Part shown: piece by piece, positions 2,804 through 35,228 of the stretch
Position numbering within the stretch: the first letter of the stretch is position 1
Layout: every line of letters begins with the position of its first letter
Origin: Campylobacterota bacterium
GTDB lineage: Bacteria; Campylobacterota; Campylobacteria; Campylobacterales; Sulfurimonadaceae
Assembly (NCBI GenBank): GCA_040752835.1
Contig: JBFMGG010000003.1
Coordinates: 1-64,000, forward strand
Length of the DNA: 64,000 nucleotides
Reading direction: 5' to 3'
Translations under genes and position numbers: made by a program
The notes under the pieces: model-generated
Told to the model about the DNA's origin: nothing
What the model saw: the letters and a program-made list of their open reading frames with translations, nothing else
The model's database searches: none

Positions 2804-2813
2804 CTTTTTCTCC

Positions 2814-4130: not shown

Positions 4131-4160
4131 TGCAACTCCTTCGAAAATCTATTTAGGAGC

Positions 4161-4169
4161 ATTATATCA
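4161..4169 (-). promoter_or_regulatory. Extended -10 promoter of aclBA
   Basis: Minus-strand TGATATAAT (4169-4161) is a perfect extended -10, 31 nt upstream of the aclB ATG. No clear -35 is seen, which is common in this phylum. Confidence 0.65.
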
Positions 4170-4219
4170 CCCGGGAGTCTATTTCATCGGCAGAAAACGG
4201 CTCTTTTCGTACGACAAAG

Positions 4220-5973: not shown

Positions 5974-6023
5974 CTGGTCATCCTGTGCGGGCAATCGTAA
6001 CGGCCATTGTATCCTGTCATGGC

Positions 6024-9698: not shown

Positions 9699-9765
9699 GG
9701 TTTGTCCTTGCTTAGGATCGCTTAGGGTTATTCTACTGTGCCGCGGCTAAATCCGCGCCGCGGGT

Positions 9766-10830: not shown

Positions 10831-10864
10831 CGCCGCATTCTTTATTGTTGTATATTTTTCGCGC

Positions 10865-10870
10865 ATTATA
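10865..10870 (-). promoter_or_regulatory. -10 element of mqnE
   Basis: Minus-strand TATAAT lies in the 95-bp divergent region between mqnE and glnD. It overlaps the most upstream possible mqnE ATG, which argues against that start. On the plus strand TACAAT near 10898 may serve glnD. Confidence 0.55.
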
Positions 10871-10925
10871 CCGAAAGAAAAACGACAATAATCGGTTACA
10901 ATATTTTCAAAAAAGCGTAACGACC

Positions 10926-13433: not shown

Positions 13434-13436
13434 TGA

Positions 13437-15251: not shown

Positions 15252-15318
15252 GCCGTAACGTCCTCCGCCCCTTCCCGTTTCAAAATAATTTAAAATAATT
15301 TTAGATACTCTCATTACA

Positions 15319-15324
15319 TATAAT
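15319..15324 (+). promoter_or_regulatory. -10 element upstream of the heme-c GGDEF gene
   Basis: TATAAT stands in an AT-rich 113-bp gap, 40 nt before the ATG at 15365. Confidence 0.5.
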
Positions 15325-15364
15325 TTTTTCTAAAACGTCAATCCCCCTCAAGGCAACGGACCGA

Positions 15365-17203: not shown

Positions 17204-17285
17204 AATCTCTCTACGCCCGGCATGCGGGCACTGAACAAAAAGCGACGTAAACGATTAGGGGAGCACGCCGTACTTTTAAATCGCC

Positions 17286-17307
17286 AAAAAGCCGCTGCTA
17301 GAGCGGC
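17286..17307 (-). terminator. Rho-independent terminator of the second heme-c GGDEF gene
   Basis: On the minus strand, GCCGCT-CTAGC-AGCGGC is followed directly by TTTTT (17290-17286). The stop codon lies in the loop. Confidence 0.8.
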
Positions 17308-19094
17308 ATCGATTTGGGATCAAACGCCACTACGCAGTTGCCGCCGCGGTGTTTTGCTTCGAGAAGTGCCCTCTTGGCCAGTTCGATCGCTTCTTTCATG
17401 TCGCCCGTCTGGGCCGGGAATAAAGCCATGCCGATGCTCACGGTTTTGAGAATCGCGTAGGTATTGACGCGGATTTTCTTTTTGAACGAAGCACGGATCG
17501 CTTCGGCGACCTGCTCGGTTTCGTCGTGTTCGTAATCGTACAAAACGACGGCGAACGTGTCGACCCCGTAACGGATCACCATATCCCCCGGACGGGTCAA
17601 ATCCTGGATATTGCGCCCGATTGCCTTGATCACTTCGTTCCCTACCTGGAGGTCGTATGCCTGGTTGATGGAGTGGAACCCGTCCATATCGACGATGAGC
17701 ACCCCATAGGGGATGGCGGTACGTTTGGACTGCGCGACGATCAGGGCGGCGAATTCTTCGAGGAATTTGCGGTTGTACAGCCCGCTCAGCGAATCGATCC
17801 GAACGCTCTCTTCGAGTTTTTTATTGATGATCTGCAACCGTGAGGCACTGATGTAGTTGCCCAGTTGTTCCAGAACCGAACGGATTTTCGGAACTTCTCG
17901 CACATCCTGCGTAACGATCGAAATCACGATGTCCAGATCGTCGGCAACGGGGTAGCTGCGGCATGCGTACTGTGCGGCGGGATCGATCATTTTCGGGCAT
18001 GCCGCTTCGCATTCGGTCGAATCGATGATTCCCGACGTCCGGTCCGCACGGCAGCCGCTGTTGAGTGCGTCGCACAGCAGGGTTTTTTCACTGTGTACCA
18101 GACGGGTGTATTTGGTCATCGGGTTCATCTCGAAGAGATTGAAATCGTTCAGTCCCCACCGCATCCGGATCAGGGCGACCAGGCGTTCATACACCTCTTC
18201 GAGATTGCCGTCTTTTTCGATCGATGCGCGGAAACGGTCGATGTCGTGGAGCTGGTTTATCCCAACATGAAGGGTGTAGAGCGGATCGTTTTTGGGCTGA
18301 TCGATCCGTATCATCGCACCGATTTTTTCACCGCTTTCGTTTAGCGTCGTATCCAGTTTTTCAAGGATCGCGTTCGTCCACATCACCGCATTGTAGCCGT
18401 CTTTGCTTTCGGGGGCTTCGATCCGATGACCGTAATCTCCCCCCTCGGCTTTTTCCATCGCCTCGGCGATCTGCTCCAGCGGTTCTTTGTACGACGCGAC
18501 GAAACGGCGGACGTTGCGCAGTGTCAGGGCACCGAGGATCAAAAGCATCCCCGATGCGGCGACGGCCGCAAGGATTCCTGAACCCTTGATGTCGTTTATC
18601 TCCATCTCGATCGAGACGACACCGAGGATTTCGCCGTTTTTGGCTTCATGACAGCTCATGCAGTCGATTTTTCCGTTTTCGCGGGCGACATAGGGAATGC
18701 TCAGGCGATAGAGGGTATCGGAGAAAAGCGTTCCGGTGATGTCATGATAGGGTTTCCCTTCCCGCAGAACCATCCGGTCGATTTCGTCTTTGGACTCCTG
18801 CGGATGCAGCCCTTTACCGTACTGTCGGACGATGCTCTCCCCGCGAACGACCCATGCCGAACGGACCCCTTCGATCGATGCGATCTGCTCCAGCAGTTCA
18901 TTCTGGTAATCGGCACTTCCCGCCTTCATGTGCGACGTCAGTGATTCTCTGACCAGTTCGGCGCTCATCTGCGCCCGCGCATCGGCCCCTTCGTACCCCA
19001 GGTACCGGAATAGTAGAAGCGTTGCGGCACCGACGAGGGCAATCATCCCCCCTATGCTCAGCGCCAACGTCCAAAATGTCTTCGTGTTTTTCAT
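17298..19094 (-). CDS. Heme-c sensor protein with degenerate GGDEF domain
   Basis: This 598-residue paralogue of the preceding receptor has TM1, a periplasmic domain with CMSCH at 145-149 (the same residue numbers), TM2, a linker and a C-terminal GGDEF domain. The signature is GVDTF (510-514) instead of GG(D/E)EF, losing the second Gly and the metal/base Glu, so cyclase activity is unlikely. The RPGD I-site five residues upstream remains, so it could act as a c-di-GMP-binding receptor or a regulatory partner. The ATG at 19094 has GGGGAAGA upstream and was preferred over the GTG at 19112. Confidence 0.88.
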   Translation of the reverse strand: MKNTKTFWTLALSIGGMIALVGAATLLLFRYLGYEGADARAQMSAELVRESLTSHMKAGSADYQNELLEQIASIEGVRSAWVVRGESIVRQYGKGLHPQESKDEIDRMVLREGKPYHDITGTLFSDTLYRLSIPYVARENGKIDCMSCHEAKNGEILGVVSIEMEINDIKGSGILAAVAASGMLLILGALTLRNVRRFVASYKEPLEQIAEAMEKAEGGDYGHRIEAPESKDGYNAVMWTNAILEKLDTTLNESGEKIGAMIRIDQPKNDPLYTLHVGINQLHDIDRFRASIEKDGNLEEVYERLVALIRMRWGLNDFNLFEMNPMTKYTRLVHSEKTLLCDALNSGCRADRTSGIIDSTECEAACPKMIDPAAQYACRSYPVADDLDIVISIVTQDVREVPKIRSVLEQLGNYISASRLQIINKKLEESVRIDSLSGLYNRKFLEEFAALIVAQSKRTAIPYGVLIVDMDGFHSINQAYDLQVGNEVIKAIGRNIQDLTRPGDMVIRYGVDTFAVVLYDYEHDETEQVAEAIRASFKKKIRVNTYAILKTVSIGMALFPAQTGDMKEAIELAKRALLEAKHRGGNCVVAFDPKSMPL

Positions 19095-21849: not shown

Positions 21850-21967
21850 CGTATCAGTTTGAATGTATGTTAAAAATTTCAAGATGGTTTAGGAAAAGAG
21901 CCTCTCTTCGCACCCTTGATTCTTCTAGAATTTAACACAAACAAGATAAAAAAAAGCTTTTTGAGTG

Positions 21968-21973
21968 TATAAT
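21968..21973 (+). promoter_or_regulatory. -10 element of the ispDF operon
   Basis: TATAAT lies 31 nt before the TTG start of ispDF. It removes the upstream in-frame GTG at 21965 from consideration because that codon would precede the transcript start. Confidence 0.6.
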
Positions 21974-22003
21974 TTCGTAACAGTTTTTCAAATAGGATAC
22001 AAT

Positions 22004-23125
22004 TTGTCTGATTTGACCCTGATTTTTCTTGCCGCGGGCAACTCGAGCCGTTTCAAAATTGCCGTAAAAAAACAGTGGCTTCGAATCGGGCACGATCCGC
22101 TGTGGCTTCATGTTACCAACCGTATCAAAGAATCCCTGCCGGGTGTCAGGATACTCATCGCCGCCCATCCCGAAGAGATCCCATTCATGCGCTCCATGTG
22201 CGATTTCACCCTCATCGGGGGAGGAGCAACCCGCCAGCAATCGCTCAAAAACGCCCTCGAGCATGTTGATACCCCTTACGTCATGGTCAGCGACATCGCC
22301 CGCTCCTGCATCGACCCCTCGCTCATCGGGCGGCTGCTCGACGCAAAAGAAGAAGCCGACTGCATCGTACCGGCGCTCGATGTCGTCGATACGGTCGTCT
22401 ACGGCGGCGAAACGATCGAGCGAGACCGGGTAAAACGCATCCAGACGCCCCAGCTCTCCCGTACCGAAGTATTGCGGCATGCGTTGCAAAGCGACATCGA
22501 ATATACCGATGACAGCAGCGCGATCGTCGCTGCCGGAGGTACGCGCCGTTTTGTCGCAGGGGATGAATCGGCGGCCAAAATCACCCATGTCTCCGACCTC
22601 GCGGCGGGAGAATGTCTCCCTCCCCCCTCTTCGGCCGTCTTTACGGGCAACGGGTTTGATGTCCACGGTTTCGAAGAGGGCAAACCGATGATGCTCGGCG
22701 GGGTCCGCATCGATTCCCCTTTCGGTTTCAAAGCGCACAGCGACGGCGACGTCGCGATCCATGCCCTGATCGACGCGCTGCTGGGTGCGGCATGCCTGGG
22801 CGACATCGGGATGCTTTTCCCCGATACCGACGACACCTACAAAAATATCGACTCCAAAGAACTTTTGCGCGAATGCGTCGCGAAACTTCACCGTTTCGGG
22901 TTTGTCATTCTGCACGCCGATGTGACGATCATCGCCCAAACTCCGAAACTTGCACCCTACAAAGAGGCAATGCGCCAAACTTTGGCATCATTAATGCTTC
23001 TCCCTCCTGCATGGGTCAACGTCAAAGCGACGACCACGGAGCATCTGGGGTTTGTCGGGCGCAAAGAAGGCGTCGCCGTCATGGCCACAGCATCGGTACA
23101 CTATTTTGATTGGAAAAACGGATGA
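22004..23125 (+). CDS. ispDF: Bifunctional MEP cytidylyltransferase / MECDP synthase
   Basis: This 373-residue fusion performs the third and fifth steps of the MEP isoprenoid pathway. The N-terminal IspD half has the nucleotide-binding motif LAAGNSSRF. The C-terminal IspF half starts near GNGFDVHGF and holds the HSDGD metal site. The fused form is typical of Campylobacterota, and the length matches when a TTG start at 22004 is used, with AGGA 6 nt upstream. Its TGA overlaps the next ATG (ATGA). The following genes repeat the order known from Campylobacter (ispDF, orphan regulator, sulfate adenylyltransferase, pgpA). Confidence 0.95.
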   Translation: MSDLTLIFLAAGNSSRFKIAVKKQWLRIGHDPLWLHVTNRIKESLPGVRILIAAHPEEIPFMRSMCDFTLIGGGATRQQSLKNALEHVDTPYVMVSDIARSCIDPSLIGRLLDAKEEADCIVPALDVVDTVVYGGETIERDRVKRIQTPQLSRTEVLRHALQSDIEYTDDSSAIVAAGGTRRFVAGDESAAKITHVSDLAAGECLPPPSSAVFTGNGFDVHGFEEGKPMMLGGVRIDSPFGFKAHSDGDVAIHALIDALLGAACLGDIGMLFPDTDDTYKNIDSKELLRECVAKLHRFGFVILHADVTIIAQTPKLAPYKEAMRQTLASLMLLPPAWVNVKATTTEHLGFVGRKEGVAVMATASVHYFDWKNG

Positions 23126-24009
23126 ACGTATTAATTATCGAAAATGAGATCTATCTCGCCCAAAGCATCGCTTCGAAACTGAGCGACCTGAACCACAACT
23201 GCGACATCACCAGTTCGGTCAAAGAGGGGCTTCGCGGCGTCCCCTACGACGTTGTCCTTTTGTCGACCAACATCAGCGGGCAGGACATCTATCCCGTCAT
23301 CGAGACGTACAAAAATTCCGTCGTCATCCTGATGGTCAGCTACATCAGCAACGACACGGTTTCCAAGCCGCTCGCCGCGGGGGCCAAAGACTACATCCTC
23401 AAGCCCTTCATGATCGAAGAGCTGATCCGGAAAATCCAGCATTTCCAGCAGCACGAACGGCTCAAACGCCAGAACCAGACGTACGAACGCTATCTCACCC
23501 ATACGTTCAACGCCATCAACGTCCACGAAGATCTCGATAAAATCGAACTCCCCCTTTTCATCTGCAGCAGTTACCAAAAATACGCCGACGCGTTCGCGTT
23601 CCGCTACGCCGCCCATCACGACAAACCGATCCAGTTCATCTCCCTCTCTTCGGCCAAAGCATTCAGTGACATCGCCGCCATCGGGGAGGATTCGGTCCTC
23701 TACATCACCGATTTTCAGAACCTCAAAAAAAGCGAACACAAAGCGTTTTACGATCTGATACAGGAACGCTCCTGCATCATCGCCAGTACCGATCCGGTCG
23801 ACCATCCCCCTTTCCGCGTCATCGAGATCGAAAGCGACAACCACCTCTTCGACCAGGGAGAGATCCTTCCGATCGAAGAGTACGTCAAATACATCATGAT
23901 CCATTTCCAAAACCGGTTCCCCGACACCGAGCTGTCGAAGAAACTGGGAATTTCGCGCAAAAGCCTATGGGAAAAGAGAAAGAAATATGGCATCGTCAAG
24001 AAAAAATAG
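23122..24009 (+). CDS. HP1021/Cj1608-type orphan response regulator
   Basis: The 295-residue protein has an N-terminal receiver fold (NVLIIENEIYLAQSIASKL) in which the phospho-acceptor position holds Ser48 (VVLLSTN) instead of Asp, so it is phosphorylation-independent. The middle is unassigned and the C-terminus is a Fis-like helix-turn-helix (SKKLGISRKSLWEKRKKYG). In Helicobacter pylori the homologue HP1021 binds oriC, restrains DnaA and acts as a redox-responsive regulator. The cysteines here (such as Cys27 and two in the middle domain) would be the places to look for redox control. ATGA coupling to ispDF and a 23-nt overlap with sat show tight co-translation. Confidence 0.88.
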   Translation: MNVLIIENEIYLAQSIASKLSDLNHNCDITSSVKEGLRGVPYDVVLLSTNISGQDIYPVIETYKNSVVILMVSYISNDTVSKPLAAGAKDYILKPFMIEELIRKIQHFQQHERLKRQNQTYERYLTHTFNAINVHEDLDKIELPLFICSSYQKYADAFAFRYAAHHDKPIQFISLSSAKAFSDIAAIGEDSVLYITDFQNLKKSEHKAFYDLIQERSCIIASTDPVDHPPFRVIEIESDNHLFDQGEILPIEEYVKYIMIHFQNRFPDTELSKKLGISRKSLWEKRKKYGIVKKK

Positions 24010-25177
24010 ATCTCTCTACATCGACCAGGAAGCGGTCTCGGCCCTGACACTGCTCAAGGCGGGAAAACTCGACCCCGTCAACCGCCTTATGAACGAGGAG
24101 CAAAGCAAAGAGGTCCTCAGCAGCGGCATGTTCAAAGGGAAAACCTTCCCCTTCCCCCTCATCCTCTCCCCCAGCGGGCGGGTGAACGAAACGGTTCTCA
24201 CCAGCGCCAAAAAAGGGGAACTCCTCGAGCTCGTATGCGACGGCTCGGTCGTCGGCGAACTGTGCGTGGACGAAGTGTTCCAGATCGATCCCAAAGAGCG
24301 TCTCCGGCAGATTTACGGCACCGACGATCTCTCCCATCCCGGGGTCAGCGCCACCTACAAACGTCTCGGGAAATACGCCATTTGCGGCGATTATACGATT
24401 GATCTCTCTCCCGTGGAAGCGCTGCAAACAATGATCGACGAAGCCAAAAACGAGATCGGCGCGCAGCACGCGACGGCGATGTTCATGGCGGCCAATCCGC
24501 TTCACCGTGCCCATGAACGGCTGATCCGCCAGACTCTTGAGGGGACGGACATGATCATCATTTTCCTCCTCAAACCCTACAACAACGCGAACCTCAGCTA
24601 CGATCTGCGCTACGAAACGCTGAAGTTTTTCGTCGATAACTATCTCCCGCGCGGTCGCGTCGTCGTCATTCCGCTGGAGAGCAGTTATATCTTCGCGGGG
24701 TGCAACGAAGTGATCCTCGATGCGATCGTTGCCAAAAACTACGGGTGCGACCGCCTCATGATCGGCCAGAACCATGCGGGAATCGGGATGTATTACGACC
24801 ACAACGCCAACAAATCGGTCGTCGACCGGCTGGTGGGCATCGACATCGAAGTGGGCGTTTCGAGCGAATACGTCTACTGCAACCAGTGCAAAACGCTCGT
24901 CAGCGTCCAAACCTGCCCCCACGGCCACCATCACCATATTTCGTACCATTCCGAGTCGATTCTCGAGCTGATGCAGCAGGGGCTTTTGCCTCCCGCCGTG
25001 CTGGTGCGCAAAGAGATCTCGTCGATGATCGTCGCGTCGCTCTATCCGGGACGGTTCAAAAACCTGGCCAAACTTTATTACGACATCATGCCGGTCAACG
25101 GGCTGCTCGAAGAACATACCGAAAAAGATTTCTACGTCGAGCTGATGCGGCTTTACCAGACAACGTCGCTGAATTAA
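23987..25177 (+). CDS. sat: Sulfate adenylyltransferase (ATP sulfurylase)
   Basis: The 396-residue enzyme interconverts ATP plus sulfate with APS plus pyrophosphate. It could act in assimilation or, in reverse, in sulfite oxidation. It has the nucleotide-binding NPLHRAHER motif and QNHAGIGMYY. A zinc site CNQC-x8-CPHGH has the same spacing (CX2CX8CX3H) as the Thermus enzyme. No APS reductase or kinase is in the window. The start lies inside the upstream regulator gene and matches the conserved Campylobacter arrangement. Confidence 0.9.
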   Translation: MASSRKNRSLYIDQEAVSALTLLKAGKLDPVNRLMNEEQSKEVLSSGMFKGKTFPFPLILSPSGRVNETVLTSAKKGELLELVCDGSVVGELCVDEVFQIDPKERLRQIYGTDDLSHPGVSATYKRLGKYAICGDYTIDLSPVEALQTMIDEAKNEIGAQHATAMFMAANPLHRAHERLIRQTLEGTDMIIIFLLKPYNNANLSYDLRYETLKFFVDNYLPRGRVVVIPLESSYIFAGCNEVILDAIVAKNYGCDRLMIGQNHAGIGMYYDHNANKSVVDRLVGIDIEVGVSSEYVYCNQCKTLVSVQTCPHGHHHHISYHSESILELMQQGLLPPAVLVRKEISSMIVASLYPGRFKNLAKLYYDIMPVNGLLEEHTEKDFYVELMRLYQTTSLN

Positions 25178-25187
25178 AAGGAGTGGT

Positions 25188-25700
25188 ATGAATTTTCGAT
25201 GGTTTTTTCTGACGGGCGCCTACAGCGGTCTTTTCCCCAAAGCACCCGGAACCGCGGGAACCCTCGCGGCATTGCCCGCCGGTGTCGCGGTTCTCGCCTA
25301 TTTCGGCTCCCAGACTCTTTTTCTCGCATCGCTTCTGATCACCCTCATCGCCCTCAAAGCGATCAACGCCTACGAAGCCCAAAGCGGTATCCACGACGAT
25401 AAACGGATCGTCATCGACGAAGTCGTCGGGATGTGGCTGGCTCTTTCCATCGCGCCCGGTGCCACGTTCGCGTGGCCGGAACTTGCCCGGTGGGAGAACG
25501 GCCTGATGGTGCAAATCGTACTCGCGTTCCTCTTTTTCCGTCTCTACGACATTAAAAAACCTTCGGTCATCGGCCGTATCGACCGTGAAGCCAAAGGAGG
25601 ATGGGGCGTCATGGGCGACGACATTCTCGCCGGTTTCGCCGCGGGAATCAGCTCGGCCATCGTCTGGCAGCTGCTCCTCAAAACACCCCTCTTTAGCTGA
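25188..25700 (+). CDS. pgpA: Phosphatidylglycerophosphatase A
   Basis: The 170-residue inner-membrane enzyme removes phosphate from phosphatidylglycerophosphate to give phosphatidylglycerol. Family features are the GLFPKAPGTAGTL start, the IDEVVGMW core and the C-terminal WGVMGDDILAG. AAAGGAG precedes the ATG closely. It ends the ispDF block, and its last 8 bp overlap the 3' end of the opposing GGDEF gene. Confidence 0.93.
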   Translation: MNFRWFFLTGAYSGLFPKAPGTAGTLAALPAGVAVLAYFGSQTLFLASLLITLIALKAINAYEAQSGIHDDKRIVIDEVVGMWLALSIAPGATFAWPELARWENGLMVQIVLAFLFFRLYDIKKPSVIGRIDREAKGGWGVMGDDILAGFAAGISSAIVWQLLLKTPLFS

Positions 25701-27501
25701 CGACCCGGTTTCTTCCCCCCTCTTTCGCGGCATAGAGTTTTTCATCGACACGGTGCAAGAGGCTGTCGGAGGTCTCCCCGATATGCCATTGCACGACGCC
25801 GAACGAGCAGGTCAGACGTTCAAGCGGTGCGAAACGGTGCGCTTCGATCCGTGCGCGAAGCGTTTCGGCCAGTTTTGACGCCGAAGCAAGCTCGTTGTCG
25901 GGCAACAGTACGACCAGCTCTTCTCCCCCCCAACGCGCGACGATATCACTTTTCCGAACGCTCTGCGAGAGGAGGCGTGAGAGCTCTTTGAGCACTTCGT
26001 CGCCCACTAGGTGACCGTAACGGTCGTTAACGTCTTTGAAATGGTCCACATCGACGAGAATCAGCGAAAAAACTCTTCCGTATCGGCTGGACATATGGAT
26101 CGAATGCTGCAGCGCCTTATCAAACTGAAAACGGTTGGCAAGCCCCGTCAAAATATCCTGCGTCGCCAGTTCGTTGAGACGTGTGATGTCGGTGAATACG
26201 ACGACGTGGCGGACGTTTCCTTTGTATTCCATTTTTTTCGAGTTGACCCGAAAAATCGTGGTTTCCCCGTTGATCGTCATTTTCACCTGATTCTCTTTGT
26301 TCTCGTTCGCCAGCAGATAATCGGTCCAGATCATCCCCTCCATCACCGGCATCAGGTACTGTTCGGTCTCTTCCGATTCGAAAAAATTGCAGATGCACTG
26401 ATAGGCCTTTTTGAATTCGGCCAGGGTTTTAAACCGGAAATAGTCGAAAAAGGCCCTGTTGGCGTAAATGATCTCTTTCCCGTCGGTGACGATGACGATG
26501 TTTTGCTGTGAATCGAGAATCGTATTGATGTAACGCTCCTGCAGATCCACTTTGCCGATCAGGGCGCCGAAGGTGTATTCGATGACCCCCCAAAGCAGCG
26601 CCACCATCGTCAATGTAACCAGCAGGCTCCCGATCAGTGCGTCCGAAATCGACTGATTCGCCCCCGTCACGTCGTTGATCGTCACGATCATCCCGAAGGT
26701 ACGGCGTTTCGTATCTTTGAGAAACAGCGGTGTGACTTCGTATTCGCGGTGTTTGTAGCGGACGGTGCGGGGGAGAAGTCCCGGATTTTTCTGTGCAAAG
26801 AGCTGCATGATCTCTTTTTTCTCCGGGAGCACGCTGCTGTAATAAAAGCTGTCGATCCCTTGAGAATAGAGTTTGCGGTCCGCTGCCCCGAGCCATTCGC
26901 GGTGCAGCAATACGATACTCTCCGACCCGGTCGAATCTTTGATCTTTTTGACGAAGTAACCGCTGTCGACCCCGTATTCGACCGCACCGATGTATTTTCC
27001 CTGATCAAAAATCGGCATGATGACCCGGAATGCGATCCCTCCGAGCCCACCTTCGAACCCGGTGACCATTTTGTGTTCGCGGTGGATCTCCTGAAGCATC
27101 GGGCGGCGTGATGCGATGTCGTCGCCGTATTTCTCTTTCAGGTGGACCCGCAGGATGGAGCGCCCGTCGGCGGCATGAAACTGCATGATGTGCAGATAGG
27201 GGTTCTCTTCCTGCAGAGCTTTGTATCGGGGGAGAATGAGGCGGTAGAGCGTTTGCGTATCCCGCGCTCCGATCGCTTCCATCACGCCGGGTGTTTCAAG
27301 GGTGGCGCGGGTGCGGAACCGGTAAAGCTGTTCGGTGTCGTGTACGATCGAATCGAACGAAAGGCGGATGTTCTCCGAAGAGCGTTCGCTCCGTTCTTTG
27401 GCGAACTGTTTCTCCTGCGAGATATGGTAGAAAGTCAGTGTGGCCGAAACGACGATGACGATCAGCGCGATGATCAGTTGTACGCGTAACTTGAAATTCA
27501 T
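25693..27501 (-). CDS. Cache-PAS diguanylate cyclase
   Basis: The 602-residue membrane protein has TM1 (about 8-24), a periplasmic double-Cache-like sensor (about 30-290), TM2 (about 293-315), a cytoplasmic PAS domain (about 325-440) and a GGDEF domain. The motif is GGEEL (525-529) with the RKSD I-site five residues upstream, so it should be catalytically active and feedback-inhibited. GGAGG precedes the ATG. It starts 31 nt after the molybdoenzyme cluster on the same strand and could be read through from it. The ligand is unknown; small carboxylates or amino acids are usual for this fold. Confidence 0.9.
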   Translation of the reverse strand: MNFKLRVQLIIALIVIVVSATLTFYHISQEKQFAKERSERSSENIRLSFDSIVHDTEQLYRFRTRATLETPGVMEAIGARDTQTLYRLILPRYKALQEENPYLHIMQFHAADGRSILRVHLKEKYGDDIASRRPMLQEIHREHKMVTGFEGGLGGIAFRVIMPIFDQGKYIGAVEYGVDSGYFVKKIKDSTGSESIVLLHREWLGAADRKLYSQGIDSFYYSSVLPEKKEIMQLFAQKNPGLLPRTVRYKHREYEVTPLFLKDTKRRTFGMIVTINDVTGANQSISDALIGSLLVTLTMVALLWGVIEYTFGALIGKVDLQERYINTILDSQQNIVIVTDGKEIIYANRAFFDYFRFKTLAEFKKAYQCICNFFESEETEQYLMPVMEGMIWTDYLLANENKENQVKMTINGETTIFRVNSKKMEYKGNVRHVVVFTDITRLNELATQDILTGLANRFQFDKALQHSIHMSSRYGRVFSLILVDVDHFKDVNDRYGHLVGDEVLKELSRLLSQSVRKSDIVARWGGEELVVLLPDNELASASKLAETLRARIEAHRFAPLERLTCSFGVVQWHIGETSDSLLHRVDEKLYAAKEGGRNRVVS

Positions 27502-27532: not shown

Positions 27533-28024
27533 TTAGATCAACATCGGTTCGTCGGTCGGTTCGATCTCTTCGAAATCCTGAACGATCTGATCAAGCATCG
27601 CCTGTGTCTTTTTTATTTTACTGATATTTTCATCAAAAATCGACTTGGACGCGGGAAAAGCTTCCGAAAGTTCCTGATAAATGAGGATCCGCCCCCCGAA
27701 ATGGCGGTTAAACTCGTCAAACGCCCTGCGGAGATACTCTTTGGACGTCGTATGGCGGAAAAGAGCTTTGATCATTTTTTTACGCTCTTTGATCGGCAGA
27801 GACTCGTCGATCGCTTCGGCGACACGCTTGATGTCCAGACGCGAAAAGTAAACTCCGCTGTGGTAGGGGGCCAGCAATTTGTCCGCGAGTTCATCGACGA
27901 ATCCGGGGACCGGCTCTTCCACCTCTTCGTGTTCTTTGGTCGTATCGCAGCTGTCGCTGTCGCACTTTCCGCGTATAAACTGGTCGAATTCGGCTCTCAG
28001 ATCGCTCAGGTCGTGTTGGTTCAT
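27533..28024 (-). CDS. Conserved-looking protein of unknown function, end of molybdoenzyme cluster
   Basis: I do not recognise this 163-residue acidic, helical, cytoplasmic protein. Near the N-terminus is a short cysteine pair in GKCDSDSCD, followed by an acidic linker and a helical body with the LPIKERKKMIKALF and LIYQELSEAFP stretches. There is no signal peptide or membrane helix. GAGGAG precedes the ATG, which overlaps the TGA of the upstream gene (ATGA). That coupling ties it to the molybdoenzyme cluster; an assembly, chaperone or metal-delivery role is only inference from context. Confidence 0.75.
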   Translation of the reverse strand: MNQHDLSDLRAEFDQFIRGKCDSDSCDTTKEHEEVEEPVPGFVDELADKLLAPYHSGVYFSRLDIKRVAEAIDESLPIKERKKMIKALFRHTTSKEYLRRAFDEFNRHFGGRILIYQELSEAFPASKSIFDENISKIKKTQAMLDQIVQDFEEIEPTDEPMLI

Positions 28025-28461
28025 TGTCGTTTCTCCTCTGTAATTAGATCGTAAAAATAACGGGTTGCCGCCATCAGGGCGACATCTTCGTCGAATGCTT
28101 CGGCGTATTTTTCCAGCGCCGTGGGAGTGATCAGATCGCCGATCAGCTGCCCCTCTTCGATGCGGATCAGATCGCAATACCCCTGCGCCTTTGCCGCATC
28201 GGTCGCACCGTCAAGCAGCGCGTACGCTTCTGCCTGGTACTCGTTGGCGATCACCGCGCCGCTGAGCTTGGACGAGCGCATCTGCGAAACGGTAAACGTT
28301 ACGTCATCGGGGCGGATGTTCATCGGGATAATCATCGCGTTCATACCGTTTTCTTTAAACAGTTTGTTACTCACGGCCGCAAAGCGGCTGCTGTGGGCAT
28401 TTTCGGCGATGTAGCCGAACAGTTTCGTCTCAACCGTAATCGAATTGTCGTTGTTCATCAT
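28021..28461 (-). CDS. Stand-alone domain resembling the N-terminal half of shikimate dehydrogenase
   Basis: The 146-residue protein shows the pattern of the AroE substrate-binding domain: LFGYIAENAHSSRF in place of the usual VFGNPIxHSxSP, then NKLFKENGMNAMIIPMNIRPDD. No NADP-binding Rossmann domain follows. The catalytic Lys of AroE (VTxPxK) is replaced in VIANEY, so dehydrogenase activity is not expected. It is coupled by ATGA overlaps to the polyferredoxin gene upstream and the 163-residue gene downstream. It may bind a small ligand or act as a maturation factor for the molybdoenzyme; this is inference. Confidence 0.7.
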   Translation of the reverse strand: MMNNDNSITVETKLFGYIAENAHSSRFAAVSNKLFKENGMNAMIIPMNIRPDDVTFTVSQMRSSKLSGAVIANEYQAEAYALLDGATDAAKAQGYCDLIRIEEGQLIGDLITPTALEKYAEAFDEDVALMAATRYFYDLITEEKRQ

Positions 28462-29561
28462 GGTTTCAGTCCCCACAATTCCATAGCTTCTTCCTCTTCC
28501 AAGCGGCAACGGCGGCAGATTTTTTCTCCCCCCACCGAGCTGAACAGACCGCTGCATTCGTCGCATCGTCGGACCGAAAACGTCACCAGGTTCTGTACGG
28601 AGGGTTCGTACCACTCTTTGAGGTTGTATGACGTCGATACGCTGATCGCGCCGCTCTCGCACACATCGTGGCACAGATGGCATTTGACGCACAGAAACGG
28701 GTCGAAATCGATTTTGCTGTTGCGCAGGTCCGACGTGAGTGCTCCGGTAGGACAAACGCGGTAGCACATTTCACAAGCGGTGCATTTGGCTTCGTCGAGC
28801 AGTTTCTGCGACGTGAAACTCACCGCGTCGGCCGAAACGACATGGTACGTCTCCGGCCGTTCGGTTCGTTTGAGCGCCGTAAAAAAAAGTTTCCGACGGT
28901 CGGTGATTTTTTTGGTTCGCAGCCCCTGGGTATCGAAGCTCCCGATCGAACATTCGACGAATTCGTCGGTCGATTTCTGCACTTCTTTTTCAAAATCGGC
29001 TTTGACCTTGGCGATCCCTTTGAGATGGAAATGCCTGAAAAAATCGCGCCGCTGCGCTTCCCCCGGATCAGGTTCCGTCTCATCGACGTATCCCAGCGGT
29101 ACAAGGGCGAGCGCGTTTTCCGATCCCACCGCTTCGAGCAGGTAGGCGACGTTTTCGACTCGCTGCTCAAGCCGCCGCAAAATCGCCTCGCCGATTTCGC
29201 ACGCCCCGCAATGTCCCGTATCGAGCACGACGTTTTTTTTGAGTTGGGCCAATGCGATCAGATGTTCGTCGCTCAGCGCCCCCAGGCAGGGAACGTTCTT
29301 CTGGCACGATACCGTATTCCCCGGCTCGGCGGCAAACGAAAAGAAAAACTCGGTAGCGCTGAAATCTTCCAACGCAAGAGCTTCGGTCGGGCAGACGGCA
29401 GCGCACGCGTTGCATCCGACGCAAAGCGAATGGTTGATGGCGGGCAGACGCCCTTCCAGCGACACGGCATGCGTCGGGCAGACTTCGGCACAGCCGTTAC
29501 AGGCCGAGTTGACGCTGAGGGCGCGAACGCATCGGGCGGGAGTCAGATGTAAAAGGCCCAT
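28458..29561 (-). CDS. Polyferredoxin accessory protein (four 4Fe-4S sites)
   Basis: This 367-residue cytoplasmic protein has two N-terminal clusters (Cys11/21/24/28 and Cys47/50/53/57). A middle cysteine-containing segment, VPCLGALSDEHLIALAQ...HCGACEIG, recalls the MvhD/FlpD hydrogenase Fe-S subunit fold. Two further ferredoxin sites follow (CTACEMCYRVCP and CVKCHLCHDVCE), and a C-terminal CDEC...CRRC pair looks like a zinc ribbon or rubredoxin knuckle. It lies between the TorD-like chaperone and the AroE-like gene. Genes of this type accompany formate dehydrogenases and related molybdoenzymes in Campylobacterota; electron delivery or cofactor insertion are both possible. Confidence 0.85.
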   Translation of the reverse strand: MGLLHLTPARCVRALSVNSACNGCAEVCPTHAVSLEGRLPAINHSLCVGCNACAAVCPTEALALEDFSATEFFFSFAAEPGNTVSCQKNVPCLGALSDEHLIALAQLKKNVVLDTGHCGACEIGEAILRRLEQRVENVAYLLEAVGSENALALVPLGYVDETEPDPGEAQRRDFFRHFHLKGIAKVKADFEKEVQKSTDEFVECSIGSFDTQGLRTKKITDRRKLFFTALKRTERPETYHVVSADAVSFTSQKLLDEAKCTACEMCYRVCPTGALTSDLRNSKIDFDPFLCVKCHLCHDVCESGAISVSTSYNLKEWYEPSVQNLVTFSVRRCDECSGLFSSVGGEKICRRCRLEEEEAMELWGLKP

Positions 29562-29562
29562 A

Positions 29563-30180
29563 TCATTCCGAAACGGTTTTACTCAGCATCTCGTTGTCCG
29601 AGAGGATGAATTCGAGCGCCATCTCCGCCGCATCGTAATAAAGCGGGGTACGTGCTTCGTATTTCATGTTGATCAGGTACATCGGCGCCCATTTGAGCAA
29701 GTGGGTGTTTAAAAATCGGTGCTGGATTTTCATCAGCTCCGCCGACGCCTCAAGATCGTCTTCGCCCAGGGCTTTTTTCTGCGCTTCGCACAGGTGGTGC
29801 ATGAACTCCAATTCGATGCCGATGTGGTCGGCCGAAACGACGCGGGCGATCTCGTAATCGACGATAAAGCCGTACGCGCTGTACATGTCGGTAACCGGGT
29901 TCGCCCCGCCTGTTTCGATCATCTGGTCACTGCGGGTGTAAAAGGTCTCGTAGGGGACCAGATGCAGAATCGAGAGGTTGACGAAATCGGGGTTGAGATA
30001 CTCATCCAAAAGCTGCTGGTTTGGGAGACTCAGACGCGGTTCCCACTCTTTCCAATGGGGAAGAAAATCCAAAACCGTTTCGTCGGTTTTAAACGTCTGA
30101 AGCGTCTGCGCGTCCAACTCTTGGAGAAGTACCCGTGACAACAGTCCGTAAATATTGCTTCGTGCGATGATTTCATCCAT
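29563..30180 (-). CDS. TorD/DmsD-family molybdoenzyme chaperone
   Basis: The 205-residue all-helical protein has the TorD-family core LVPYETFYTRSDQM and HIGIELEFMHHLCEAQ. Such chaperones bind the Tat signal and apoenzyme, aid molybdopterin insertion and prevent early export. The adjacent upstream gene encodes a Tat-exported molybdoenzyme, its likely client. It is separated from the polyferredoxin ATG by one nucleotide and from the catalytic subunit gene by a GC-rich hairpin, which may set a lower expression level. Confidence 0.88.
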   Translation of the reverse strand: MDEIIARSNIYGLLSRVLLQELDAQTLQTFKTDETVLDFLPHWKEWEPRLSLPNQQLLDEYLNPDFVNLSILHLVPYETFYTRSDQMIETGGANPVTDMYSAYGFIVDYEIARVVSADHIGIELEFMHHLCEAQKKALGEDDLEASAELMKIQHRFLNTHLLKWAPMYLINMKYEARTPLYYDAAEMALEFILSDNEMLSKTVSE

Positions 30181-30257
30181 ACGGTATTACCTTTAAAAAT
30201 ATACTGGTGGGATTTTAGCTTATCGGGCTGAAAAGCTCATAAGAAGAGGCGCCTACT

Positions 30258-30278
30258 CCCCGGAGGAAGCCTCCGGGG
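30258..30278 (-). other. Strong intercistronic hairpin after the molybdoenzyme catalytic gene
   Basis: A perfect 9-bp stem, CCCCGGAGG with a 3-nt loop, lies between the catalytic subunit stop and the chaperone gene. It lacks a U-tract, so it is more likely an mRNA-stabilising or partial attenuation element than a full terminator. Confidence 0.7.
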
Positions 30279-30287
30279 AAGTTTGGC

Positions 30288-33200
30288 TTAGCCTTTGATG
30301 GAAACGTCGTACGCGGTTGGGTCAAGGCGGACCCAAGGACGTTTAATGTGGCGTGGACGACGGATGGTCGATCCCGCATCCAGACCGCGGCTGAGCTGGT
30401 CACGCCACGCCTGGTAGACTTTGAGATTGTTTTCGTAGTTGACGAAAATATCCCCGATTTTGTCTCCCGCCTGCGCCGGTTCGAGGAGAACCTTGTGGTG
30501 CCAGCAGTGCATGCCCGATACCGGGTCCGGATGGGCCGCAGCCACGGCATTTTGCCATGAGCCCGAAAGACCGTCCCACCATACGTTGACGGAGTCTGCG
30601 TTGTACTGACCGAAACGTTTCGTTTCGAACGGCTTGATCCCTTCGACGTATTTGAGTTTTCCGACTTTTCCGTCCATCTGAACTTCGGCGACCGGAACAC
30701 CGAAGCTGTTCAGACCGGTGGTGCCCTCGTAATCGTCGATGACCGTCTGGGCACCTGCACGTCCGGCATTTTCCGGAGACTCTTTGAGGAACTCTTTGTT
30801 GTTCAAATCGCGCGGTGCCGTACCGGTAGCGACCTTACCGTCGGAAACCCCGTTGGGAACCGCAACGGCGTTGGTCAGTTTCCAGCGTCCGCCGTGGTGG
30901 GAACATGCGAGAGTACCGGGGAGAACGCCCTCGGTCGGAACCGCCATCGCAACGAAGAATCCGCTCTCAAGACCCGAAACGGTGTCGACGATTTTGACAC
31001 GGATCGCGTCACCGCGTTTGAATCCGAGACGTTTCGCGTCGACGGTATTGATCCAGATCGGATCGTGGTTCTGGCTGATCTCCATCAGGTGTTTGGAGTT
31101 CGCCGAACGGGTGTGAATGTTGTACGGCAGACGGAAAACGGTGTTCAACGCGAACGCGTTTTCTTCTTTCATGTACATGTGGTTGACGTGCGATACGATG
31201 TGCTCCATCTCCGCTTTCTCTTTGTCGTTACGCGGATAGAACGGTACGGCGTATTCCGCCCATTTCCACTCGGCAAACCACTGAGAATAGAACTCGAGTT
31301 TTTTCGACAGCGTCGCAAAACCTTCGACTTTTTTGCCGTCGACTTCGACCCCGATCGCCGAGCGGTGACCGTGGTGATCCGCAGCGGTGATGACGCCGCC
31401 CGCACCCACGCTCATCGACGCCGCGTCGAATTTGTGCCCGTGAGCGCTTACTTCGCCGTTTTCAACTTTGAGTTCGCGTTCCATCGCATGGTAGATTTTA
31501 TCCTCTTCCATCCAGACACCGTGGTCGCGCAGATAGGCATAAACCGGGAATTCCTCGTTCATGTAGCGAGGATCGTTCGTTGCCGTCTCTTTGAGTTTCG
31601 GGAGGTTATCCCCGAATGCCGCGTCGTACCACTCGGCAATCGTAACCGGTTTGCCCGGATGGCGTTTGGATTCCCACATTTTTCGGACACCGAGGCTTCC
31701 GTCGGGATCGACGTAGTTGACGCACAGGTCAAACCAGAACTCGTTCTCTTCCCATACTTCGCCCAATCCGGCTTTGATGTGCGCTTCGAGCGTCGCACGG
31801 ACCGGATTTTTCGGTTTCCAGCCCGATTTTTCGAGCGCTACACGCAGTACCGGCTGGCGGAACGACGTCCAGCGTGCCGGCATCGTCGCTTCGGAGTGCT
31901 GGTCGTGACGTTCGCCTGCCAGACCGACGGGGAGAACATAGTCCATGTACCAGTTCGACTCGGACCATACCGGAGAGAGGTTCATGGTGAGTTCCATAAT
32001 CTCTTCGTTTTTCAGCACTTCGATCCAGCGGAAACCGTCCGGGTTGATCCACACGGGGTTGTACATACGCGGGATATAGACGGCGAGCTTGCTCGGAACG
32101 TTCAATCCGCGGTCGTTCCATTTTTTCTGCCACTCTTTATCGCTCAAAAGGTGCGGCAGCAGGTAAGAGAGTTCGTACGTCGACAAAGGCCATTCCGGCG
32201 GCCATGTCAGTTCGTTCCACACTTTGACCTTCGGTACGTCCGCACCCGCGACACCCTGTCCGACGGTTGCGCTTCCGCCCTTGCCCGAAACAGAGATAAC
32301 GTGCCAGTGGTGGAAGAAAGTTCCCCCTTCCGTTCCGATACCGCCGCGCAGGGCGATCGCCAGATACGCCGCCCGTCCGCTCATCCATCCGCCGCGGTTC
32401 CCCGCTGCGGTCGCACGCCAGATGTACGTCGAAATCGCGTCTCCGGCCCAGATGAACATTTCGTAGAGTTTCTCGAGTTTGTACGCCGGTACATGGGTCT
32501 CTTTGACCGCAAATTCAAGCGTATACGGAGAGTAAAGCTCTTTCATCAACTCCATGTAGCTTTCGAAGCTTTTGTCCGCCGGTAATTTAGAGATATACCC
32601 TTTTTCGACCATCAGGCTCAGCTGGCGGTCGTCGTTCATCAGAACGTCCCAGTTGAACCATTTTTTGACGAATTTTTTATCGGCTTTCCCTTCCTGGAGG
32701 ATGCGGTTGACCAGATAAAGGTAAACAACGGGCTCGGTTCCCGGCCATGCCGCGATCCAAAGGTCCGCCATCCCCGCCGAGTTCGACATACGCGGGTCCA
32801 TAACGACCATTTTCGCACCTTTTTTGCGTGCGTCGGCGATAAAAGCCGCAGACTGCGCAAAATAGTGTCCCGCATCCGCTGCGTGCGACGAGTTGAGGAA
32901 AATCAGTTTGGCGTTCGCCCAGTCGGGGCTCGTACGGTCGTCGTTCGCCCACTGGATCGTCGGTGTACGGCCGTTGGATGAACAGATGTTCGTGTGGGAA
33001 TTGTACGAGTCAACCCCGAGCGTTTCCCAAACCTGCGGAACGAAACCGTTTTCGTTCGGGCGCCCGACGTGGTACATCACCGATTTGCGCGAGAGGTCGT
33101 CCCCTTTGCGGAGGGTGTCTCCCATTTTTTTACCGATGGTGGTCATCGCTTCGTCCCAAGTCGTACGGATCCATTTACCTTCTCCGCGCTTGGAACCCGG

Positions 33201-33680
33201 AGCACGTTTGAGCGGGAACGGGATACGGTCGGGATCGTACATCTGCGACTGAACCGCGTACCCTTTACCGCAGTTACGTCCGCGTGATGCCGGGTGGAGC
33301 GGGTTACCCATGTATTTTTTGACGACAAAAGTCTTTTTGTCGATCCATGCCGTCAGACCGCACGAAGCTTCACAGTTCGAACACGCCGTAGGGACGATCA
33401 TGTAATCGTTGACGTAGATACCTTCGGGGTTCTCTTCGCTCTGAACGCCGTGGCGGTCGATACCGCCCCGTTTCCAGTCGACGCCGTCAAGCTCCTGGAA
33501 ATGGTTCCACTGATCCAGCGGCGGATAGAACGAGAGGCTGTCCGGCGTATTGGTAAATTTGCTCTTTTCGACCGATTCGGCGACCGCGTCGGCGGTAAAC
33601 ACCCCTTTCGCGATCGCGGCGCCCGTTACGGTTAACGCGGCGCCTTTTAAAAATGTTCTTCTACTTTCCAAATACATCAT
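30288..33680 (-). CDS. Tat-exported molybdopterin oxidoreductase, catalytic subunit
   Basis: This 1130-residue enzyme of the complex iron-sulfur molybdoenzyme family carries a Tat signal, SRRTFLKGAALTVTGAAIA. It has an N-terminal [4Fe-4S] site (Cys100, Cys103, Cys107, Cys137, followed by Lys139) and a probable molybdenum ligand Cys233 in HTNICSSNGR, which puts it in the Cys-ligated Psr/Phs/Ttr/Arr/Soe-like group rather than the Ser-type DMSO reductases or Asp-type Nar. The partners are PsrB- and NrfD-like. Plausible substrates are sulfur compounds (polysulfide, tetrathionate or sulfite), as expected for a sulfur-oxidising autotroph, but sequence alone does not settle the substrate or direction. 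Formate dehydrogenase seems less likely. Confidence 0.9.
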   Translation of the reverse strand: MMYLESRRTFLKGAALTVTGAAIAKGVFTADAVAESVEKSKFTNTPDSLSFYPPLDQWNHFQELDGVDWKRGGIDRHGVQSEENPEGIYVNDYMIVPTACSNCEASCGLTAWIDKKTFVVKKYMGNPLHPASRGRNCGKGYAVQSQMYDPDRIPFPLKRAPGSKRGEGKWIRTTWDEAMTTIGKKMGDTLRKGDDLSRKSVMYHVGRPNENGFVPQVWETLGVDSYNSHTNICSSNGRTPTIQWANDDRTSPDWANAKLIFLNSSHAADAGHYFAQSAAFIADARKKGAKMVVMDPRMSNSAGMADLWIAAWPGTEPVVYLYLVNRILQEGKADKKFVKKWFNWDVLMNDDRQLSLMVEKGYISKLPADKSFESYMELMKELYSPYTLEFAVKETHVPAYKLEKLYEMFIWAGDAISTYIWRATAAGNRGGWMSGRAAYLAIALRGGIGTEGGTFFHHWHVISVSGKGGSATVGQGVAGADVPKVKVWNELTWPPEWPLSTYELSYLLPHLLSDKEWQKKWNDRGLNVPSKLAVYIPRMYNPVWINPDGFRWIEVLKNEEIMELTMNLSPVWSESNWYMDYVLPVGLAGERHDQHSEATMPARWTSFRQPVLRVALEKSGWKPKNPVRATLEAHIKAGLGEVWEENEFWFDLCVNYVDPDGSLGVRKMWESKRHPGKPVTIAEWYDAAFGDNLPKLKETATNDPRYMNEEFPVYAYLRDHGVWMEEDKIYHAMERELKVENGEVSAHGHKFDAASMSVGAGGVITAADHHGHRSAIGVEVDGKKVEGFATLSKKLEFYSQWFAEWKWAEYAVPFYPRNDKEKAEMEHIVSHVNHMYMKEENAFALNTVFRLPYNIHTRSANSKHLMEISQNHDPIWINTVDAKRLGFKRGDAIRVKIVDTVSGLESGFFVAMAVPTEGVLPGTLACSHHGGRWKLTNAVAVPNGVSDGKVATGTAPRDLNNKEFLKESPENAGRAGAQTVIDDYEGTTGLNSFGVPVAEVQMDGKVGKLKYVEGIKPFETKRFGQYNADSVNVWWDGLSGSWQNAVAAAHPDPVSGMHCWHHKVLLEPAQAGDKIGDIFVNYENNLKVYQAWRDQLSRGLDAGSTIRRPRHIKRPWVRLDPTAYDVSIKG

Positions 33681-33693
33681 AATTTGACCCTCT

Positions 33694-34593
33694 TTAGCTC
33701 ATTGGTAACAATTGGGGGATAACCAGCCAAACGTGTTTGCTGACCCACAATCCGATCAATGCCGATACGGCAGCGATTTTCAACAGATAATACGACTGGT
33801 TTTTAATGCTCAGGCATACGAGTACCATCGGTACGATGAATGCCATCACCTGCCCGATCCAGAACATTACGGTGTACTCGCCGCCTTTGACGTAATGGAG
33901 CACCGCAGCGACCTCTTCGGCTTTCATCGGTCCGAAAATCAGTTCGGCCATGTAAAGGATAAACGCTGCCGCGGCGCTGAGTCCCAGGACAACGGCGAGA
34001 TCTTTTTTGATCGCGTCGGAAAACTTGTTTCCGCCCAGCAGCAGCATCGTTGCCGATCCCGCCAGCAACGCGGCGAGGATCATCTGCGCCGACTCAGTCG
34101 GCATCTGCCAGATTTCACGCGCCGTCGACTGTGCCATCAGACCCGCGGTATACAGGGTGACGGGAACCGCCAGAAGGGTTGTCCATCCGAGCAGTTTGTC
34201 GTAGAGCGCTTCGTCTTTTTTCAGATAGATCGCGTACGCCATACCGAAAAGCAACCCGACGAAACCTGTCGCCATCCATGCGCCGATCGTAATCGCCGAC
34301 GTAAGGTGCGGGTAGAAAAAGATGTGCCAGAAGCGGAACATCTGGTGCAGGTCGATCACCGTAAAGAACAGGAAGATATGGATAAAGACGATCGAAATCG
34401 CCACTACCGGGAAACGGATGAACCCTGTCTGCTCCGGGTGTTTTTTCAACAGGTAAAACGCAAGGAAAATAATACCGGTACCGATACTTTTCGCCCACAT
34501 GTTCATCGTGATGATCCAGCCCCACACGATACCGGGAAGGGCCACGTCAAGAACTACGACCGCATTGGTCGCTGCAATTGTTTCATGTACCAT
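33694..34593 (-). CDS. NrfD/PsrC-like membrane anchor subunit
   Basis: The 299-residue integral membrane protein has about eight helices. It begins with an alanine/valine-rich segment and IVWGWIITMNMWAKSIGTG, typical of NrfD/PsrC/TtrC quinone-binding anchors. It would pass electrons between the menaquinone pool and the Fe-S subunit. TAATG overlap with the upstream Fe-S gene and a 13-nt gap to the catalytic gene show one operon in the order B-C-A, the order known for ttrBCA. Confidence 0.9.
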   Translation of the reverse strand: MVHETIAATNAVVVLDVALPGIVWGWIITMNMWAKSIGTGIIFLAFYLLKKHPEQTGFIRFPVVAISIVFIHIFLFFTVIDLHQMFRFWHIFFYPHLTSAITIGAWMATGFVGLLFGMAYAIYLKKDEALYDKLLGWTTLLAVPVTLYTAGLMAQSTAREIWQMPTESAQMILAALLAGSATMLLLGGNKFSDAIKKDLAVVLGLSAAAAFILYMAELIFGPMKAEEVAAVLHYVKGGEYTVMFWIGQVMAFIVPMVLVCLSIKNQSYYLLKIAAVSALIGLWVSKHVWLVIPQLLPMS

Positions 34594-35228
34594 TAGTGCC
34601 CTCCGACGGGAAGATGTGTGATGTTGTTGAAGAGGTTATGCCCCTCTTCGCGTACCGACGCCAGAGGATTGAGCGTCACATTGCCGCCGCCGACGTAGTA
34701 GTGGTGCGGGAACGTTCCGCGCTCAGGCTTACGCACCTGTACGTTGCCCTGATGCGACTGGATGTATTTGCTGATGTTCGAGGTCGGATCGTCGAGGTCT
34801 CCGAAAATGTTCGCTTCGACCGGGCATGCGACGACACACGCCGGCATCATTGCGCTGGCGATACGGTGGGCACAGTAAGTACATTTGTCGGCAGTTTGGG
34901 TTTGCGGATCGATGTAAATCGCACCGTACGGACACGCCATAACACATCCGGCACAGCCGATACAACGCTCTTTGTCGATATTGACGATGCCGTTTTCGAG
35001 GTAGTGCAGCGCACTGACCGGACAGATGCGTTCACACGGTGCGTTGGCACAGTGGTTACAGCGAAGCGGCGTAAACGTCCGTTTTGTTTCGGGGAAGGTC
35101 CCTACGTCGACATATTTAACACGGAGGCGCCATGTAGAGAGCGGAACTTCGTTTTCCACTTTACAGGCGATCTCACAGCCCTTACAACCCATACAGAGGC
35201 GAAGGTCTACCAAGAAACCCAATTGCAT
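34593..35228 (-). CDS. Four-cluster Fe-S electron-transfer subunit (PsrB/NrfC/DmsB-like)
   Basis: The 211-residue protein has four cysteine groups: CMGCKGCEIAC (from Cys12), CNHCANAPCERIC, CIGCAGCVMAC and CTYCAHR...CVVAC. They would hold four [4Fe-4S] clusters connecting the catalytic subunit to the membrane anchor. It has no signal peptide of its own and would be exported by hitch-hiking with the Tat-borne catalytic subunit. AAGGAG precedes the ATG. It is the first gene of the cluster. Confidence 0.92.
   Translation of the reverse strand: MQLGFLVDLRLCMGCKGCEIACKVENEVPLSTWRLRVKYVDVGTFPETKRTFTPLRCNHCANAPCERICPVSALHYLENGIVNIDKERCIGCAGCVMACPYGAIYIDPQTQTADKCTYCAHRIASAMMPACVVACPVEANIFGDLDDPTSNISKYIQSHQGNVQVRKPERGTFPHHYYVGGGNVTLNPLASVREEGHNLFNNITHLPVGGH

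Follow-up and report, generated by a model that had tools for sequence, protein, structure and literature searches.

The closest named counterparts of the system reported here are enzymes called polysulfide reductases. One study lists four PsrA proteins of Sulfurovum indicum, whose Mo-ligand cysteines are at positions 171, 247, 183 and 195 (PMC10045233), and another describes polysulfide reductase (PSR) homologs in which non-vent Sulfurimonas group with Sulfuricurvum, while S. autotrophica groups with Nitratiruptor (PMC4584964). Polyferredoxins encoded alongside exported molybdoenzymes have been met in other settings: arxB2 was described as apparently arx-specific, with an unclear role (PMC6549141), NapF is a cytoplasmic Fe-S protein required for cluster assembly of NapA in R. 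sphaeroides (PMC10609526), and archaeal sre operons pair a polyferredoxin of unknown function, SreD, with a chaperone (PMC3189178). Here, we analyzed a stretch of 64,000 nucleotides from a Campylobacterota bacterium of the Sulfurimonadaceae (contig JBFMGG010000003.1, positions 1 to 64,000; the window), in which genes for the electron-transfer (B), membrane anchor (C) and catalytic (A) subunits of a molybdoenzyme precede four accessory genes. We consider it fairly probable that BCA is a periplasm-facing, menaquinone-linked sulfur molybdoenzyme and that the four downstream genes encode a cytoplasmic maturation module. The enzyme is widespread and known by name, and its substrate and direction rest on that name; what is new here is the accessory module and its generality.

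The cluster consists of seven intact open reading frames on the minus strand (27533-35228) in the order B-C-A-TorD-polyferredoxin-AroE-N-like-p163, and because this seven-gene order is repeated across dozens of genomes, it is well beyond chance. Subunit B (34593-35228, 211 amino acids) is a four-cluster [4Fe-4S] electron-transfer protein of the DmsB/PsrB/TtrB type; its best NCBIfam match is TtrB (203.7 bits, under the cut-off of 416), and it has no transmembrane segment and, by eye, no export signal of its own. Subunit C (33694-34593, 299 amino acids; PF03916, 4.5e-14) is an NrfD/PsrC membrane anchor, quinone-reactive by family, with seven hydrophobic segments in a Kyte-Doolittle scan. Subunit A (30288-33680, 1130 amino acids; PF04879/PF00384/PF01568) is the catalytic subunit with a molybdenum-bis(pyranopterin guanine dinucleotide) (Mo-bisPGD) cofactor. 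It carries a classic twin-arginine translocation (Tat) motif, SRRTFLKG, a four-Cys FS0 motif, and a Mo-ligand region, NSHTNICSS, with C233 as the Cys ligand, and the Tat motif is also present in all 15 sampled members from Campylobacterota, Aquificota and Myxococcota. With a Mo-bisPGD A subunit bearing the FS0 Cys motif, a four-cluster B subunit and a membrane anchor, the enzyme is a complex iron-sulfur molybdoenzyme.

In maximum-likelihood trees, from which SoeA, SreA and selenate/selenite reductase branches are missing, the A family forms one clade (100/100) within a larger Psr-Ttr-Arx assemblage, outside the TtrA and ArxA clades, and forcing it together with PsrA/PhsA was rejected by the approximately unbiased (AU) test (p-AU 0.027). 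Scores against the Ttr families fell far below their cut-offs (TtrA 43.6 of 1750 bits, TtrB 203.7 of 416 and TtrC 21.1 of 314), so that the poor match of the catalytic subunit to Psr and Ttr, which had been noticed by eye in a sequence-only reading of this stretch, was borne out. Subunit A also scored below the ArrA cut-off (81.7 against 1600 bits), and a search for the ArrA family gave no match in 81 genomes or in the controls. The score for Asp-ligated dimethyl sulfoxide reductase type II was 109.9 against 984.75 bits, with A lying outside the type II clade, and the Tat motif of the window A sets it apart from SoeABC, in which A is cytoplasmic and Tat-less. The same reading had proposed a respiratory system, probably acting on a sulfur compound; a respiratory complex iron-sulfur molybdoenzyme, very probably for a sulfur compound, is supported, with A nesting in no characterised PsrA/PhsA, TtrA or ArxA clade, and no characterised clade having the same accessory genes in known roles was found to enclose it.

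Each of the known systems shares some features with this enzyme. PsrABC/PhsABC have a Cys-ligated Tat-exported A, a four-cluster B and, in Psr, an NrfD-type C, but they form a separate clade, and the window A, at about 1130 amino acids, is longer than their 760-820 or so. TtrABC is likened to it by TtrB as the best curated match of B, and by a basic C+5 residue and a His at position -4 relative to the Cys ligand of A, but differs by clade and by score. Arx/Arr shares an ArxB2-homologous polyferredoxin, a TorD partner and the top structural match of A, although no arxXSR genes were seen here, ATP sulfurylase genes are the neighbours instead, and A falls outside the ArxA lineage; membership in ArxA argued via the polyferredoxin is ruled out by the tree. 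Near the Mo ligand, the A family has invariant GR207, H229, C233 and R238. The basic residue at C+5 (Arg238 in the A family) is also found in ArrA and TtrA, whereas PsrA3 and PsrA4 of S. indicum have the neutral Val and Thr. This suggests an oxyanion-binding site; because T. thermophilus PsrA has an Arg near its Mo-ligand site too, we take the residue as suggestive of such a site and go no further. The structure of A modelled with AlphaFold (pLDDT 70.9, pTM 0.75) has ArrA as its top Foldseek match, with acetylene hydratase and PsrA also among the nearest solved structures, and in VIA-align many bisPGD enzymes tie at Z 24-29, so that the fold of A names no substrate.

The sequence-only reading had put the system forward as its best candidate for an incompletely described one; in the literature, however, the enzyme already has a name. 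Genome G224 carries exactly the cysteine set 171/247/183/195, with the A-family member as Cys247, and locus-tag spacing anchored by soxB places the A ortholog at IMZ28_RS08440, i.e., psrA1, the 'group I polysulfide reductase' of PMC10045233. With psrA1 as Cys247, the order of Cys positions given there departs from the gene numbering. The window BCA is thus the ortholog of psrA1B1C1 of S. indicum, and the genome identified as strain ST-419 has all seven genes in this order; the pattern of the A family also resembles that of the PSR homologs (PMC4584964). In the available part of the S. indicum account, no PsrA is said to have a typical Tat motif and the accessory module does not appear (PMC10045233), although the window A carries SRRTFL and three of the four PsrAs of G224 have clear twin-arginine motifs (L142:8822-12154, L129:643-3105 and L132:646-3066). 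Given these motifs, the cytoplasmic sulfur-reduction model set out in that account may need revision.

Three of the accessory genes had been described as orphans, and this description no longer stands: the four accessory genes form a conserved module, and the polyferredoxin is of the ArxB2 type. The TorD/DmsD-type chaperone (29563-30180; PF02613, 5.4e-16) scored 59.3 bits for Nitrate_red_del against a cut-off of 22.2, placing it in the TorD/NarJ family. The polyferredoxin (28458-29561) has four Fer4 motifs and a C-terminal CxxC...CxxC and is without a signal peptide. It matches ArxB2 at 24% identity (E 2e-9), with 91% of the query covered, and it aligns along its length with ArxB2 of the Cereibacter arx operon, with an Azoarcus KH32C copy and with a copy from the operon of a type II molybdoenzyme, with 22 invariant columns over nine sequences, including the C-terminal cysteine pairs. 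Judged by this homology, the arx specificity of arxB2 no longer holds. The AroE-like protein (28021-28461, 146 amino acids; PF08501, 3.5e-7) is the AroE substrate-binding (N) domain alone and lacks the two-domain architecture of shikimate dehydrogenase, which some relatives retain (full-length L067 matches PDB 2hk9 at 1.8e-11); an active dehydrogenase was rejected here since the NAD(P) domain is absent. The protein p163 (27533-28024, 163 amino acids) is all-helical, with a confident AlphaFold fold (pLDDT 84.6), invariant residues P53, G57, Y59, R81 and M84, and a helical bundle for which a fold search gave no convincing PDB match. By eye, none of the four proteins has an export signal, and none has a transmembrane segment.

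The inheritance of these genes follows that of the exported enzyme. Among 298 genomes of the class, counted like all co-occurrences here uncorrected for phylogeny, all 62 that encode A or the type II enzyme contain the polyferredoxin, against 2 of the 236 others; Campylobacterota with both enzymes have two or more copies, and those with A alone have one. The pattern is repeated in Aquificota (24/25), with one shared copy. In several genomes where the TorD-polyferredoxin-AroE-p163 quartet is no longer linked to BCA, its genes still stay together; in a few genomes the AroE-like gene, and no other member, is absent. Members of the quartet were not found within about 9 kb of three cytoplasm-facing enzymes examined. 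Because these cytoplasmic proteins share the inheritance of an exported enzyme and are encoded beside its TorD, they would most simply be read as maturation factors for that enzyme, by analogy with NapF. NapF and SreD are likewise encoded with a Tat-exported molybdoenzyme and a chaperone (PMC10609526, PMC3189178); the likeness is one of gene context, and the window family differs from them in its length of about 340-390 amino acids and its C-terminal CxxC pair. The ArxB2-type polyferredoxin accompanies several unrelated exported molybdoenzymes and probably matures them, which turns the unclear role of ArxB2 (PMC6549141) into a testable idea. Two further loci bear on the family. On pAZKH of Azoarcus KH32C (L038:5245-13136), a B-C-A-TorD-three hypotheticals-polyferredoxin operon has genes for arxXSR-like regulators and for an arsenite exporter in its neighbourhood, and its A is one of the closest outgroups to the A family, not an ArxA. 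In an f10 genome (G182, L196:3273-11477), a transposase-flanked molybdoenzyme-B-C set lies with a polyferredoxin, NapH/NapG-like ferredoxins and TorD, a further pairing of polyferredoxin with TorD.

In the maturation scheme that we favour, A would fold and receive its FS0 and Mo-bisPGD in the cytoplasm, where TorD would bind its signal peptide and the apo-enzyme, and the polyferredoxin, as suggested by NapF, may supply or repair Fe-S clusters or hold the cofactor reduced until A is exported. The AroE-like protein, its copy here having lost the NAD(P) domain, and p163 would serve as structural helpers. A would then carry B through Tat and dock on the NrfD anchor C, such that C, the four B clusters and FS0 could relay electrons between the quinone pool and Mo. 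A different account, in which the polyferredoxin, AroE-like protein and p163 serve as soluble carriers of electrons or as partners in catalysis (e.g., for ferredoxin-linked electron entry), would fit the dehydrogenase nature of the AroE fold and a polyferredoxin with four or more Fe-S motifs. We regard it as distinctly improbable, given that the accessory proteins have no export signals while A is exported, that the AroE copy is without its NAD(P) domain, and that no such module lies in the flanks of about 9 kb around the non-Tat enzymes. The maturation scheme has points to its discredit as well, in addition to the uncorrected counts: in Aquificota the two enzymes share a single polyferredoxin and neither AroE-like nor p163 genes were detected, and in three f7 genomes (G134, G203 and G240) the polyferredoxin adjoins queuosine/moeA genes and not a molybdoenzyme. 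These f7 polyferredoxins (L193:8811-9866, L194:9471-10523 and L195:9391-10446) lie beside queD/queE-like and queC-like genes, with a moeA-like gene in L193 and L194.

The nearest named relatives of A are Sulfuricurvum metagenome-assembled genomes (81-87% identity). The family is present in 51 of the 298 class genomes, including all 26 genomes sampled from the window's own family, and in many other sulfur oxidisers of vents, redoxclines and aquifers, and it extends to Aquificota and Myxococcota at about 50-55% identity. Homologs at 35-38% over near-full length occur in Rhodococcus jostii RHA1, Thermomicrobium and haloarchaea; since this sister clade has an A without a Tat signal and a B fused to the NrfD protein, its enzymes should face the cytoplasm. 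It resembles SoeABC in layout (lack of Tat, B plus NrfD) and in its sulfur neighbours, whereas the window enzyme is Tat-exported. The neighbours are DsrE, TusA and several metallo-β-lactamase-fold hydrolases in RHA1, and a rhodanese-domain protein and TauE/SafE in Natrinema. For the A cluster itself, an ATP sulfurylase gene lies beside or near it in Sulfuricurvum and several Sulfurovum-like lineages, and soxB lies 10-32 kb away in four Sulfurovaceae genomes; soxB as an obligate partner was rejected, with 22 of the 51 A genomes having none.

A second molybdoenzyme adds to this sulfur context. Ahead of the cluster in Aquificota stand the genes for a type II molybdoenzyme, YeeE/YedE and a rhodanese, the type II enzyme having alpha, beta and gamma subunits, the last with ethylbenzene-dehydrogenase-type and cytochrome c domains. 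A and type II occur together in 24 of the 25 Aquificota A genomes and type II alone in none (Fisher 2e-22), in the same order and 6.9-8.3 kb apart in the 19 measurable cases, hinting at a two-enzyme sulfur pathway. The two co-occur in 24 of the 51 Campylobacterota A genomes; an obligate partnership, near-obligate in Aquificota, was rejected in Campylobacterota, where 27 of the 51 are without type II. A bolder proposal combines two ideas, that A, type II, rhodanese and YeeE/YedE make up one so far undescribed two-step periplasmic sulfur-oxidation pathway, in which one enzyme would feed cytochrome c and the other quinone and the pairing would be near-obligate in Aquificota but optional in Campylobacterota, and that ArxB2-type polyferredoxins mature Tat-exported molybdoenzymes in general; taken together, these are improbable in our estimation. 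The window's own genome has a second operon (G000:C5:6059-14588, L145) with a rhodanese, type II alpha, NarH-like beta, a large EbdC-like gamma candidate, a small protein, TorD and a polyferredoxin, and in several f8 genomes soxB is about 10-17 kb from the type II operon.

As to what BCA does, an oxidative or reversible role for A, to which we give even chances, is slightly preferred over a dedicated polysulfide or elemental sulfur (S0) reductase, which we hold possible but tentative, and in which menaquinol would reduce periplasmic polysulfide to sulfide via C-B-A as in Wolinella Psr. The oxidative lean comes from the cytochrome-type partner enzyme in Aquificota and the sister clade carried by aerobes, and A is present in all 26 sampled genomes of its family, including one that we take to be S. 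autotrophica, a species reported as O2-only. A genome that we presume to be NBC37-1 has no Wolinella-type PsrA, which favours reduction by the present enzyme; the Nitratiruptor genome is likewise named by our presumption. Also on the side of reduction are the published names (psrA1B1C1, PSR homolog) and the Psr activity in Epsilonproteobacteria that is cited, at second hand, from NBC37-1 and S. gotlandica work in PMC4674564. Transcripts of psrA1 were abundant in S0 reduction (FPKM, fragments per kilobase per million, 2504-17874) but not significantly above those of nitrate-grown cells, unlike psrA3, which was induced (PMC10045233); together with the rejected PsrA/PhsA grouping, this lack of significant induction by S0 speaks against a dedicated reductase. 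A quinone-reducing dehydrogenase for sulfite or another sulfur oxyanion, SoeABC-like but periplasm-facing in Campylobacterota, Aquificota and Myxococcota, would suit the cytoplasm-facing sister clade beside DsrE/TusA/TauE, the ATP sulfurylase neighbour, and the invariant GR207 and Arg238 with their basic counterpart in ArrA/TtrA. We nonetheless think it unlikely: most Sulfurimonas already encode a periplasmic SorAB, and S. autotrophica is reported without growth on sulfite. Calling the A gene psrA in metagenomes as a sign of sulfur reduction may be wrong.

The seven genes and their junctions are as first described. Read 5' to 3', B and C overlap by 1 nt, C and A are 13 nt apart, A and TorD are separated by 107 nt, TorD and the polyferredoxin by 1 nt, and the polyferredoxin/AroE-like and AroE-like/p163 junctions are 4-nt overlaps. 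The 107-nt gap (30181-30287, minus strand), present before the chaperone gene as reported, lies between the structural and the accessory genes and contains a stem-loop (-33 kcal/mol, z -2.9). Most of the relatives tested have a hairpin after the A stop codon (z about -2 to -5, with two weak cases), but it recurs without conservation of its sequence, which leaves a conserved RNA element in the gap unsupported. A dCache-PAS-GGDEF diguanylate cyclase gene (25693-27501) follows on the same strand, 31 nt past p163; it was rejected as part of the system, as the same gene is at this site only in relatives L039 and L042, and it is probably an insertion. The cluster is adjoined by a block encoding IspDF, a response regulator, ATP sulfurylase and PgpA (window 21965-25700), which is kept from Sulfuricurvum to Sulfurovum-like genomes.

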